The notes under the pieces were generated by a model that was not told where the DNA came from, made no database searches, and was given only the letters and a program-made list of their open reading frames with translations. Source: a bacterium (GTDB lineage Bacteria > UBA8248). Taken from it: DNA of 64,000 nt. Position 1 is the stretch's first letter, and each line of letters opens with the position of its first letter. The position numbers and the translations under genes were made by a program. Positions 2,852-9,089 of this stretch are shown here, one piece after another. The stretch lies in assembly GCA_022828125.1 (NCBI GenBank), contig JAJEJD010000020.1, positions 496,001 to 560,000 of the forward strand. The letters are read 5' to 3'.

Positions 2852-3568
2852 ATGTCCACGATTTCCAGCATCGAATGGACCGAGATGACCTGGAACCCGG
2901 TGACCGGCTGCACGAAGATAAGCCCCGGATGCAAGCACTGCTACGCCGAGAGGATGTCGAGACGGCTCCAAGGCATGGGGATCGAGAAGTACAAAAACGG
3001 GTTCTCCCTCGCGACTCACGATTCCTCTCTCGATGAACCCTTGAGGTGGAAGAAACCGCGTCTCGTCTTCGTCAATTCCATGTCCGATCTGTTCCACAAA
3101 TCAGTGCCGTCCGGTTTCATCGAGTCCGTATTCGACGTGATGAACCGCGCGACCCGGCATACGTTTCAGGTGCTCACCAAGCGGCCGGGACGGGCCGCTT
3201 CGCTCGAGCGGAGGCTGAACTGGACGCCCAACATCTGGCTCGGCGCGAGCGTGGAATCCGAAAAATGGCTCGGGCGTCTGGCGCCGCTCAGGGCAACCGG
3301 CGCTAGGACGAAGTTTCTCTCTTTGGAACCCCTGCTCGGCCCGTTGCCGGGTTTGAATTTGACTGGCGTCGACTGGGTGATCGTCGGCGGGGAGTCCGGG
3401 CCGGGCGCGAGGCCGATGGAGGCGGACTGGGTGAGGGAGATCCGCGATAATTGCGTGAACAGCGGCACACCCTTTTTCTTCAAGCAATGGGGCGGCGTGT
3501 TCAAGAAGAAGACGGGGCGTGTGCTTGACGACAGAACGTGGGACGAAATGCCGGAGGCACTCGCTTAA
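2852..3568 (+). CDS. DUF5131 (phage Gp37/Gp68-like) family protein
   Basis: This 238-residue protein has an N-terminal cysteine cluster (C20, C27 and C30, ending CKHCYAERM) of the spacing seen in DUF5131 proteins, which resemble the radical-SAM fold and probably bind an iron-sulfur cluster. Other family hallmarks are WNPVTGC near the start, [11 protein letters not shown] in the middle, [10 protein letters not shown], and FFFKQWGG near the end. Family members occur in phages and accessory regions, often beside a three-Cys-motif partner gene, and I see no such partner here. An AGGAG site lies upstream of the chosen ATG with slightly long spacing. Its last four bases overlap the convergent GNAT gene. 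Confidence 0.85.
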
Positions 3569-4068
3569 CCCCTAAGCGCGCCCCTCAACTCAGATATCCT
3601 GAGGAGCAACATCAGCGGTTCCTGATCCGAGAATCGTTGGAAGCCGAAGCGCTCGTAGAAATTCCCGGCCTCCTCATCAAGCGCCTGGACGATGATGGCG
3701 CGCGCGCCGATGAGGTCGGCCGCCGCCAGGGCTCTCCGGCCTGCGTCTACGATCAGATCGCCTCCCAGTCCCCTGCCCTGATAGTCGAGGTCCACCGCGA
3801 GTTGTCCAAGAAGAATCACCGGGATCGGTTCGGGCATGCTTCTTCCGACGCGCGAGGAAACCCTGCGCCTTTCCACCGATCCGGCCGCGAGGCTGTAAAA
3901 GGCAATCACACGCTCGCCCTCGCAGACGACATACGTCCGCGCGCCGCCTTTCGCTTCGTTCAAGCGGCTCTTGCTTTTCAGCCAGGCGTCGAGACTCTCT
4001 ACGCCTGAGTCAAACCCTGATACGTCGTGATGCGCACGGAGGGGTTCCGGTCCGTTTATCTCTCCCAC
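3565..4068 (-). CDS. GNAT-family acetyltransferase toxin
   Basis: This is a 167-residue GNAT acetyltransferase. It has the acetyl-CoA binding loop QGRGLGG at about residues 98-104 and FYERFGF in the C-terminal core. Length and setting match the type II toxins of the AtaT/TacT group, which acetylate aminoacyl-tRNA and stop translation. That activity is inferred from the family. The start is GTG and lies inside the 3' end of the DUF1778 gene (13-base overlap), so translation is probably coupled to the antitoxin, which comes first in the operon. Confidence 0.88.
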
Positions 4069-4313
4069 AGCGGCCTGCGCTCGAGGCGCTCTTTCAAGCG
4101 CTCGTTCGGTTCGGCGGGCGCATCGAGGGCTGCGAGAAAGGCATCATAAGATTCATCGTCGAGCGCGATGACGGGCCGCTCGTTCAACGTCTCTATCGCC
4201 GCCGCTTCGCTCGCCCTGAGCACGAACTCGGTGCGCGTCACGCCCCGGATCTCCGCAGCCCTGTCGATCAGCGCCAGCCGTTCGTCCTTCACCCTCAGAT
4301 TCATCTGGCCCAT
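4056..4313 (-). CDS. DUF1778 ribbon-helix-helix antitoxin
   Basis: This 85-residue DUF1778 protein has an N-terminal ribbon-helix-helix motif (MNLRVKDERLALIDRAA followed by the T-R-T-EFVLRA helix) and a C-terminal tail that in this family wraps the GNAT toxin. An in-frame ATG exists nine codons further upstream, but AGGAGG lies seven bases before the ATG at 4313, inside that extension, so the shorter start is preferred. It is the first gene of the operon and very probably represses its own promoter through the palindrome just upstream. Confidence 0.88.
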   Translation of the reverse strand: MGQMNLRVKDERLALIDRAAEIRGVTRTEFVLRASEAAAIETLNERPVIALDDESYDAFLAALDAPAEPNERLKERLERRPLWER

Positions 4314-4362
4314 TCGACATCCTCCTAGGCTATTGGCCATAAGCTCATCTCCACCCTCATTC

Positions 4363-5116: not shown

Positions 5117-8100
5117 GTGGAGTTTACGAGGCGTTTTACCCGGGACGGAGACGACGCGTATGGCGAGGTCGGTTTCGCGCCGCGCACCTCGCGCATCACC
5201 AACCCGGACGGCTCGGTCGTCTTCGAAGCGAAGGACATCATGGCTCCTGAGAACTGGTCTCAGGTGGCCGTCGACATCTTGGCGCAAAAATACTTCCGAA
5301 AAGCCGGCGTACCCGCCCACTCGAAAAAGGTTCCCGAAGACGGCGTGCCCGAGTGGCTGCAGCGCTCGGAGCCTGACACGGAAAAACTCGAATCCCTGCC
5401 CGAGGATGAGCGATACGGGAGCGAGCGAGACGCACGGGACGTTTTCCACCGCCTGGCGGGATGCTGGACGTATTGGGGCTGGAAACACGGTTATTTTCAC
5501 ACCGAAGAAGACGCCAGGGTGTTCTATGAGGAGCTTTTATACATACTCGCGAGCCAGATGGCGGCTCCCAATTCGCCGCAGTGGTTCAATACGGGCCTCC
5601 ACTGGGCCTACGGCATTACGCGCCCCGCCCAGGGCCATTTCTATTGCGATCCCGAAACCGGGGAAATACTCCGCTCCACCAACGCCTATGAACGTCCCCA
5701 GCCGCACGCGTGCTTCATCCAATCAGTGAAAGACGACCTCGTCAACGAGGGCGGGATCATGGATTTATGGACGCGAGAGGCGCGCATCTTCAAATACGGC
5801 TCGGGCACCGGCACGAATTTCTCTAGTCTCAGAGCGGAAGGGGAATCCCTCTCGGGAGGCGGAAGAAGCTCCGGCCTGATGAGTTTCCTCAAGATTGGGG
5901 ACCGCGCCGCGGGGGCCATCAAGTCGGGCGGCACGACACGCCGCGCGGCGAAAATGGTCACGCTCGATATCGATCATCCCGACATCGAGGAATTCATCAA
6001 CTGGAAGGTGCACGAAGAACAGAAAGTGGCTGCGCTCGTATCGGGCAGCAAGATGTGCAACCGGCACATGAACGCCATTCTCGGAACTTGCCGGGAAGAG
6101 AAGAACCTGACCTTGAATGGCAACCTCCATCAACCGGACAAAAACCCATCACTCGCCAAAGCGATACATGCCGCAAGGCTCGCCGGTGTTCCGGACAATT
6201 ACATTCATCGAACCCTTCAACTCGCGCAGCAAGGTATCACCGAGATCGAATTCGAGGAATTCGACACGAATTGGGAAGGCGAGGCCTACGCCTCGGCGTC
6301 CGGGCAAAACTCGAACAATTCGATACGTGTCTCAGATAAGTTTATGAAAGCCATCGAGAAAAATACGGAGTGGAACTTGATTCGGCGGACCGATGGTGAA
6401 ATCGCCGACTCCGTTAGTTCAAAAGAACTCTGGGATCAGATTGGGTATGCGGCGTGGTGTTGCGCAGACCCGGGCCTTCAATTCGATACGACTATCAACG
6501 ACTGGCACACGTGCGCCACTGATGGGCGCATCAACGGTTCTAATCCCTGCTCGGAATATATGTTCCTGGATGACACCGCATGCAATCTGGCATCCATGAA
6601 TCTTATGAAATTCCTGGATACTGAAAAGAATCATTTCCAGATAGAAAACTATCGTCATGTCATTCGCCTGTTGACAGTTGTCCTCGAAATTTCCGTGCTC
6701 ATGGCGCAATTCCCCAGCCCGGAAATAGCCAAACGCTCATTCGAGTATCGTACCCTGGGGCTTGGGTATGCCAATCTCGGCACTGCGTTAATGGTTCTCG
6801 GCATCCCTTACGATTCTCCGGAAGCGGAAGCGTGGTGCGGCGCTCTCACCTCGATCATGACAGGCCACTCGTACGCCACCAGCGCCGAGATGGCCGGAGA
6901 GCTGGGTGCCTTCTCCAGGTATCAGGGCAACCAGGAACATATGCTGCGAGTTCTGAGAAACCACCGCCGCGCAGCTTATTCCGTACCGGAAGCAGAATAC
7001 GAAATGCTCTCTAAAGCGCCAAACGGAATTGCTGCGGGTCTCTGCCCCGATTATCTTCTTCAAGCGGCGCGTGAGGCGTGGGACGATGCTTTAGCCATCG
7101 GCTATCGAAACGGCTACCGGAACGCGCAAGCCACAGTTATCGCGCCGACAGGCACCATTGGTTTGGTGATGGATTGTGACACAACGGGAATCGAACCGGA
7201 TTTTGCCTTGGTGAAATTCAAAAAACTGGCCGGGGGCGGTTATTTCAAGATCATCAACCAATCCGTTCCCGTTGCCTTGCGGCATCTGGGCTATGACGAT
7301 GAAGAGATCCGCGAAATCGTCGCCTATTGCCGAGGTCGGGGCACCCTCACGAATGCGCCTCATATCAACCCAGAGTCTTTGCATGAGAAGGGGTTTACGA
7401 GCAAGGCTCTGGAAAAAGTGGAAGCCGCGCTCGAAGGGGCGTTTGAAATTCAGTTCGCCTTCAACAAATACTCCCTCGGTGAAGACTTCTGTCGTGAGCA
7501 ATTAGGACTCAGTGAATCGCAGATGAGCGACTGGGATCTGAATCTGCTCGAAGCCATTGGTTTCACTCACGAGCAAATCAGCGAAGCGAATGATTTTGTC
7601 TGCGGGAAAATGACGCTCGAGGGCGCCCCCCACCTAAAAGAAGAACACCTAGCCGTTTTTGATTGCGCGAGCAAATGCGGGCGTGAAGGCAAGCGCTTCA
7701 TCAGCCCTATGGCGCACGTCCGGATGATGGCGGCGGCACAGCCTTTCATATCAGGCGCCATCAGCAAAACCATCAACATGCCAGCGGAATCAACGATTCA
7801 AGATATTTTGGACATCTACCATGAATCGTGGCAGCGGATGACGAAAGCCATAGCGATTTACCGAGATGGCTCGAAACTAAGCCAACCACTTTCCGCGCAA
7901 AGCGAAGCGGACCTCTTCGCTGATATCAATGAGGAAGAACCAGCTACCCAAAGCGCTCCCGTGCACGTAGCTCAGCAAATTGTGCGCCGGATCATTTATC
8001 AATCCAGAAGACGCAAGTTGCCTACCCGCCGTGGTGGATACACACAAAAAGCCGTCATCGGTGGGCACAAAGTATATCTTAGAACCGGAGAATACGAGGA

Positions 8101-8707
8101 TGGCTCTATCGGCGAAATTTTCATAGATATGCACAAAGAAGGCGCTGCCTTCAGAAGCCTCATGAACTGTTTCGCCATCGCAATTTCGCTGGGTCTCCAG
8201 CACGGCGTCCCTTTGGATGAATTCGTGGATGCCTTCGTCTTCACACGTTTCGAGCCCGGGGGAATGGTCTCAGGAAACCCACACATCAAAATGAGCACAT
8301 CCATCATCGATTACATCTTCCGTGAGTTGGCAGTTTCATATCTCGGTCGCCACGATCTTGCACAAGTCGTGTCGGAAGATTTGAGGAGCGACACTATTGG
8401 GCGCCCTCAGGAAGAGATCCCGGAATTCGACACCGAAGAAGAAGAGGAGATTCAAACGGTATTCCCGGGACCGGATGCGAGTGCACCGCGCAGTGACCGG
8501 ATAAGTCTGAATTATGAGAAAGAATCCACCCAAACGTCGACGACACCCATAACAGAATCAAGTTCCGCTTTGGATACGCGTATCGAAGAAGCCCGCGCCA
8601 AAGGATATGAGGGTGAAGCGTGCAGCGATTGTGGTTTGTTCACCTTGGTGCGAAACGGCACGTGTCTGAAGTGTATGACTTGTGGCGCAACGAGCGGATG
8701 TTCTTGA
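5117..8707 (+). CDS. nrdJ: Adenosylcobalamin-dependent ribonucleoside-diphosphate reductase (class II)
   Basis: This enzyme of about 1196 residues reduces ribonucleotides to deoxyribonucleotides, using a thiyl radical generated from coenzyme B12. Family landmarks are ACFIQSV with the first redox cysteine (about residue 199), [11 protein letters not shown] with the active-site cysteine (about 478), PTGTI of the phosphate-binding loop (about 676-680), [15 protein letters not shown] (about 915), and a C-terminal CSDCG...CLKCMTCG zinc-like cysteine tail that reloads the active site. GTG at 5117 is chosen because GGAGGAG (5103-5109) lies seven bases upstream; the open frame also contains a TTG further 5' that has no ribosome site. 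There is no intein. The first 300 codons are GC-richer than the rest. Confidence 0.95.
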
Positions 8708-8716
8708 AATTACTTA

Positions 8717-8797
8717 CCCGTCGTGGGGGAAACGGGCGGACTCTGCGACGGGACGAGAGCCGGGGGAGAATCCTCGGAGGGTTATCTCCCGGCTCTC
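8717..8797 (+). ncRNA. Unclassified structured RNA element, tandem copy 1
   Basis: Beginning ten bases after the nrdJ stop, a stem CCCGTCG/CGACGGG (8717-8723 with 8746-8752) encloses a 22-base purine-rich loop. A long hairpin of at least ten pairs follows (GAGAGCCGGG with CCCGGCTCTC, 8755-8764 and 8788-8797). The 23-base core from 8725 is identical in copy 2 while the stem bases differ and still pair. There is no T-run after the hairpin, so it does not look like an ordinary terminator. I do not recognise the class. Confidence 0.55.
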
Positions 8798-8878
8798 ACC
8801 AAAATCAGGATCGGGAGTTGAGGATAATATATCTTGGGGGTTGAGTCTTCGGCTCCTGTTTCAAGTCATAAGCAATTC

Positions 8879-8960
8879 CCTGCTGCGGGGGAAACGGGCG
8901 GACTCTGCGGCAGGTCGAGAGCCGGTGAAGTCTCCTAGGGGGAGTTCTTCATCGGCTCTC
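8879..8960 (+). ncRNA. Unclassified structured RNA element, tandem copy 2
   Basis: This copy lies 162 bases after copy 1. The first stem is CCTGCTG/CGGCAGG (8879-8885 with 8908-8914) and the second is a 14-pair hairpin (8917-8930 with 8947-8960). Relative to copy 1, both stems have changed sequence but kept pairing, and two of the pairs are G-U on the plus strand. They would be A-C mismatches on the minus strand, so the RNA is read rightward. The 23-base core at 8887-8909 is identical to that of copy 1. Confidence 0.55.
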
Positions 8961-8970
8961 CCTATTTCAC

Positions 8971-8999
8971 TTGACACCCGAGGTTCCTTCGCCTACCTT
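8971..8999 (+). promoter_or_regulatory. tRNA-Ala promoter
   Basis: A perfect TTGACA (8971-8976), a 17-base spacer and TACCTT (8994-8999) lie 14 bases before the tRNA. The -35 is consensus and the -10 weak, but the position is right for the tRNA transcript start. Confidence 0.5.
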
Positions 9000-9013: not shown

Positions 9014-9089
9014 GGGGGTGTAGCTCAGATGGGAGAGCGCGTGGATCGCACCCACGAGGTCAGGGGTTCGAATCCCCTCACCTCCACCA
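9014..9089 (+). tRNA. tRNA-Ala(CGC)
   Basis: This is a full 76-base cloverleaf: acceptor GGGGGTG with CACCTCC, D arm GCTC/GAGC, anticodon arm CGTGG/CCACG with loop ATCGCAC, a five-base variable loop, T arm AGGGG/CCCCT with TTCGAAT, discriminator A and an encoded CCA. The anticodon CGC reads GCG (alanine), and the G3-U70 pair that marks alanine tRNAs is present. Confidence 0.97.

Follow-up and report, generated by a model that had tools for sequence, protein, structure and literature searches.

A tandem array of structured RNA units behind the class II ribonucleotide reductase gene nrdJ in one bacterial lineage

Introduction

Ribonucleotide reductase is a central step of DNA precursor supply. 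Most bacterial structured RNA motifs of known function are located in 5' leaders. In ANTAR-target dual hairpins and in the lambdoid put RNA, two neighbouring hairpins form one recognition module. Here we describe a tandem array of RNA units directly behind nrdJ, found in a 64,000-nucleotide stretch of bacterial DNA (the window), and compare it with the closest described systems. The array unit, like ANTAR targets and put RNA, pairs two neighbouring hairpins, but it has a 12-nt loop on the first hairpin (P1) and a triloop on the second (P2) in place of paired hexaloops, and it sits after rather than before the linked gene. The two hexaloops with A1 and G4 that define an ANTAR target are thus absent. 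The protein-sequestering RNAs of the CsrB/RsmZ type also repeat hairpins with the same short G-rich GGA loop motif. In contrast to these, each repeat of the array combines two hairpins and has a 12-nt loop and an invariant G-U helix; the array is fused behind nrdJ and occurs in a genome and genus where CsrA was not detected.

The array shares with 3'-end-derived bacterial sRNAs and 3'-UTR elements a sense-strand structured RNA directly behind a gene and a terminator-like end hairpin. It differs from them in having one to four homologous tandem units, a near-invariant loop and no relative in Rfam 15. Short tandem RNA repeats are also a feature of type III toxin-antitoxin systems (ToxI-like), although their spacing is ~36 nt compared with ~94-107 nt in the array. 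Judged by the identity and strand of the neighbours alone, the array also has no constant toxin gene downstream, being followed by tRNA-Ala, an unrelated small ORF or an opposite-strand gene. We class the array as a new family of structured RNA, of the 3'-UTR type and outside every named family.

Results

The gene upstream of the array is certainly nrdJ, as its product exceeds the cut-offs of the NCBIfam models NF005736 (1973 bits) and TIGR02504 (589 bits). The reading frame is open from 5099, the stop codon TGA occupies 8705-8707 and the first RNA unit starts eight bases past it (Table 1). The promoter-like boxes that stand between the array and the tRNA gene have a poor -10 element and were missed by a consensus scan; similar sequence precedes the tRNA in several relatives.

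Table 1. Features of the nrdJ locus in the window
Feature	Position	Strand	Evidence
nrdJ, vitamin B12 (adenosylcobalamin)-dependent class II ribonucleotide reductase	5201..8707	+	NCBIfam and ORF list
RNA unit 1	8716..8800	+	Fold z -6.1; covariance model R1 94.3 bits
Unit 1 parts: P1; loop (GAAACGGGCGGA); P2; tail ACCAAAA	P1 8717-8728/8741-8752; loop 8729-8740; P2 8755-8797	+	Fold
Orphan P2 of middle unit, P1 gone	8812..8858	+	Homology to sister genomes; fold
RNA unit 3 (second intact copy)	8878..8963	+	Fold z -5.4; R1 82.8 bits; unit tree
Unit 3 parts: P1; loop; P2; tail CCCTATTTC	P1 8879-8890/8903-8914; loop 8891-8902; P2 8917-8960	+	Fold
T-rich, terminator-like tail past last P2	8961..8970	+	Tail statistics; terminator-like scan match 8936-8964
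Promoter-like TTGACA-17-TACCTT ahead of tRNA-Ala	8971..8999	+	Read from sequence; inferred
tRNA-Ala(CGC), downstream neighbour, outside the element	9014..9089	+	Rfam tRNA match

A first-pass annotation of the window had drawn attention to two tandem RNA copies with an identical 23-base core and compensated stems. The identity is present (8725-8747 and 8887-8909), as are the change of one stem from CCCGTCG/CGACGGG to CCTGCTG/CGGCAGG and the G-U pairs that are valid on the plus strand only. The first stem, given there as 7 bp, does pair but is longer, because GGGG pairs with CUCU inside P1 through an invariant G-U wobble, giving a helix of 12 bp closed by the 12-nt loop. The two intact copies surpass dinucleotide shuffles in folding by a wide margin on the plus strand (Table 1) and by a smaller one on the minus strand (z -3.5 and -3.3).

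The units, 41 of which were collected as set out below, are about 85 nt in size and share one plan. The outer part of P1 (P1a, 8 bp) is free to vary in sequence with compensation, while the inner part (P1b, GGGG/CUCU) keeps its G-C, G-U and G-C pairs constant in all 41. The P1 loop, which has a GGA at its 3' edge, consists of 2-4 variable nucleotides followed by ACGGGCGGA; ACGGGCGGACUC is near-invariant, a single base differing in just one unit (unit 2 of genome G011). P2 is a compensating hairpin of ~19 bp with the apex CCU-NGG-RGG, where the NGG triloop is followed by R and often reads GGGGG.

Both copies in the window are real, yet their number had been understated, as a third, damaged unit lies between them. 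Its remnant folds into a stem in which 14 of 14 pairs are standard, several of them as G-U. The homologue of this stem in the sister genomes G004, G006, G007 and G008 is the P2 of their unit 2, which there has a normal P1 before it. Judging from these sister sequences, the P1 of the middle unit is lost in the window and the P2 arms have changed since with their pairing kept. The spacing of the two intact copies is 162 bases, compared with 94-107, and once 123, between units in the relatives. A unit tree places the second intact copy as the positional orthologue of unit 3 in the sister genomes, and units are positionally orthologous within genera. The first unit of G002 is a remnant similar to the middle unit of the window. 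The variation in unit number, together with the decay of these two units, indicates that no single unit position is essential.

An alignment made with MAFFT without reference to structure contained double compensatory changes at 16 of the 27 predicted pairs. In the alignment of all 41 units fitted to the model, 96.9% of pair cells are standard, two-sided compensation occurs at 16 pairs (10.2 +/- 1.6 in shuffles) and 127 cells are changed on both sides (36 +/- 7 in shuffles). The covariation score from the same alignment is 0.469, compared with 0.254 after shuffling and 0.096-0.126 when the partners are slid; as the units are kin and the alignment was fitted to the structure, these figures are not independent probabilities. 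The size of the effect and the structure-free alignment nevertheless agree. With the invariant wobble left out, G-U and A-C cells number 144 and 3, respectively, which identifies the selected molecule as RNA of the nrdJ sense strand. The loop can be set against the four-fold degenerate sites of nrdJ: when the window's genus is compared with other genera, these sites are 21-39% identical (values for G001 and G003 left out). Near-invariance of the loop over this distance implies strong selection, in excess of what a stable hairpin needs.

Loss of covariation on adding more copies had been named as the result that would speak against a functional RNA; covariation instead grew with the 41 aligned units. 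Compensation above shuffles, confined to a single strand, is what marks a conserved structured RNA family, and both are found here. The functional structured RNA first suggested from two copies is thus upheld by the conserved loop, the compensated stems, the margin over shuffles and the restriction to one strand. As the loop barely changes and the stems change in matched pairs, the array unit is very probably a real functional RNA, so far unnamed.

The earlier failure to match the copies to a known class was borne out, since tRNA was the only Rfam family to reach its gathering score when the window and 14 nrdJ loci from the lineage were searched, and the cobalamin riboswitch model gave no gathering-score match in either. 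A permissive scan of the two copies against Rfam 15 returned chance matches only, the best being microRNA models with E of 0.8 or worse. A search of literature titles and abstracts, with most subscription journals outside its coverage, returned no relevant RNA motif linked to nrdJ or Nitrospina. No relevant nrd-linked hairpin array was found in those titles and abstracts either, and an earlier description in the uncovered journals is possible. Two copies in one window were enough to discover a family of covarying RNAs that Rfam lacks.

To describe its distribution we used pattern and covariance-model (R1) searches of the 18 genomes of the window's phylum, the same 18 being returned by queries at the level of order, class and phylum. 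The 41 units come from 14 of these genomes, which belong to one family and span six genera; each array-bearing genome has a single array of one to four units. The model-based search of relatives that the first-pass annotation had called for thus returned matches that adjoin nrdJ across six genera. nrdJ was detected in 16 of the 18 genomes, and in 14 the array lies 3' of it on the same strand, as it does wherever the 3' flank of nrdJ is assembled. In G016 the contig breaks within the first P1 arm (...AATTTCCCGTCTCAG...) downstream of nrdJ, and in G009 it stops 10 nt past the gene. Neither nrdJ nor the array was detected in G005 and G013.

The distance from the nrdJ stop to the first unit is about 8-30 nt in most genomes, which leaves little room for a separate promoter. 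In two g2 genomes, G001 (L234) and G002 (L195), a same-strand ORF of ~94 aa separates nrdJ from the array, and the copy in G002 has no Pfam match. In G001 and G003 the array is directly followed by an ORF with a C-terminal motif (QKLFGPRERVFLTRDEADRYAIGLG) similar to that of the ~94-aa ORF. The location between nrdJ and a tRNA, which had been remarked on as unusual, is not constant. The tRNA-Ala gene is downstream in 10 of the 14 genomes, and in G012 the single unit is followed by no tRNA, the next gene being on the opposite strand. The array is kept 3' of nrdJ there too, so the constant neighbour is nrdJ alone.

Wider searches returned little. A pattern scan of contigs, in which 80 of the 118 stretches among the matches listed were scored with the model, gave one scoring stretch (L087, 72.6 bits, from Nitrospinaceae bacterium UBA3496, which matches G012 of the set above), the next reaching 26 bits. 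Viral contigs gave one chance match, in unrelated sequence. R1 found nothing in 32 assorted genomes, in 95 genomes from the phylum of an NC10 bacterium or in 395 genomes of a 'Deltaproteobacteria' phylum; these negatives are weak, as in each search few candidates were scored per genome and there was no positive control. As far as seen, the family is confined to one bacterial lineage.

The tails that follow P2 differ with position in the array. After interior units they are mostly NCC or CCU and then A-rich, whereas after the last unit they are T-rich, often CCCTTTTT or CCCTATTT, with a median of 4 T in 8 nt (one-sided Mann-Whitney p 1.3e-5, the units being non-independent). The statement that neither copy carries a terminator T-run is correct for interior units, but last units are T-rich, and the second copy in the window has CCCTATTTC. 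The single unit of G012 has no T-rich tail. The contrast between last and interior tails suggests that the array ends the nrdJ transcript.

Discussion

Read from its sequence and position, the array could well be an undescribed structured 3'-UTR of the nrdJ mRNA that carries repeated loop sites for a putative partner, a proposal to which we give an even chance. The transcript would read from nrdJ through the array and stop at the last P2 with its T-rich tail, and the repeated P1 loops would be binding sites for one conserved partner. An RNA-binding protein is a likelier candidate than an antisense RNA, since we found no conserved complementary target. Binding of the partner would affect how stable the nrdJ message is, or how it is processed or translated, and unit copy number would set the dose. 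The effect could fall on nrdJ itself (cis) or arise by titration (trans), and we prefer cis. The missing T-rich tail of G012 and the variable number and decay of units count against the proposal. More tentatively, and with chances that we place somewhat below even, the 3'-UTR array of one to four modules may bind a dedicated partner and so couple deoxynucleotide supply by the B12-dependent reductase to a cell signal, as a new family. Ligand-binding, pure terminator and self-cleaving roles have less support. A sense-strand tandem array fixed behind nrdJ lineage-wide is a strong sign of ribonucleotide reductase control from the 3'-UTR. The module is compact, and nature provides both a series of one to four copies and damaged units, which makes its function directly testable.

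Several partners for the loop were considered. Exact complements of the 12-nt loop outside the array are sporadic and none is common to most genomes. Two of them (GAGTCCGCCCGT) fall within a region of ~540 bases with internal repeats, 77% identical between L228 (G000:C22) and L206 (G008:C107); this is probably chance. Pairing of the loop with nrdJ itself gave Watson-Crick runs of 6-8 nt at best, at non-matching places. The 8-nt ACGGGCGG is complementary to CCGCCCGU, the universal decoding-site sequence of 16S rRNA; this match is probably chance too, as the exact 14-mer CCGCCCGTCACACC was not found in the assembly and conservation runs beyond the match. A CsrA sponge is contradicted in the window's genus, where CsrA was detected in none of seven genomes, five of which bear arrays, in a search that found it in 5 of the 18 phylum genomes and in the E. 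coli and B. subtilis controls. Nor does the GGA at the edge of the P1 loop, or the NGG triloop of P2, correspond to the apical GGA hexaloop expected in each hairpin of a CsrA-sequestering RNA.

It is also possible, though rather unlikely, that the array acts in trans, as a small RNA or sponge cut from the 3' end of the nrdJ message that uses its repeated loop to titrate a protein or to base-pair with other RNAs, nrdJ being only the carrier. Several identical loops per molecule, near-invariant across species, would suit a decoy, and sRNAs from mRNA 3' ends are established as regulators and form a field of their own (review PMC9438474). Against this, the 12-nt complements are scattered without a conserved target, CsrA, the classical client of sponges, was not detected in the window's genus, and the joint absence of array and nrdJ suggests a link in cis. 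A promoter within the last part of nrdJ may also give rise to a separate small RNA.

That the hairpins do no more than terminate transcription and protect the mRNA 3' end from exonucleases, with the loop kept for tertiary structure only, we regard as improbable. The strength of the P2 hairpin and the tails of last units fit a terminator, but the tails of interior units are A-rich and G012 lacks a T-run. Nor does a terminator need an invariant 12-nt P1 loop and an unchanging G-U pair, repeated up to four times. Still more doubtful is a ligand-binding RNA, a 3'-UTR riboswitch perhaps for a form of B12 or a nucleotide relevant to NrdJ. Invariant unpaired nucleotides that adjoin a helix with covariation, together with the B12 dependence of the enzyme encoded next to them, would suit one. 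The array is, however, not upstream of an expression platform and matches neither the cobalamin nor any other riboswitch in Rfam, and both the 3' location and up to four tandem copies would be atypical.

A role as leader or attenuator for tRNA-Ala is very improbable: the tRNA comes next in the window and most genomes, but this reading is contradicted by G012, which keeps its unit beside nrdJ with no tRNA after it. In addition, a small ORF intervenes in g2, and in the window promoter-like boxes separate the array from the tRNA. The idea that the array mimics the G3-U70 element of tRNA-Ala was dropped by reasoning only, as the helix context is wrong. Tandem hairpin repeats beside a tRNA might also recall a mobile or palindromic DNA element (REP/BIME, MITE or integron attC), which we consider scarcely credible given positional orthology of units within genera, G-U pairing on one strand only and the single locus per genome, the last of which excludes REP-like dispersal. 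The unit spacings (94, 95, 96, 97, 98, 99, 101, 104, 105, 106, 107, 123 and 162) do not keep to multiples of three, which excludes a protein-coding tandem repeat.

The region upstream of nrdJ offers some further observations. A conserved string resembling AATAAAATACGAA, perhaps the nrdJ promoter, stands ahead of the gene in several relatives (L186, L189, L191 and L193), and in the g1 genomes its place is taken by TTGACA-...-TACTACATT. Further upstream in the window, 3565-4340 on the minus strand encodes an Antitoxin TacA1-like protein (PF08681, 79 bits) and an adjoining GNAT acetyltransferase; the two resemble a toxin-antitoxin pair of the TacAT type. Further upstream again, at 2852-3568 on the plus strand, lies a gene for a DUF5131 protein (PF07505, 332 bits) with weak similarity to a radical SAM family.
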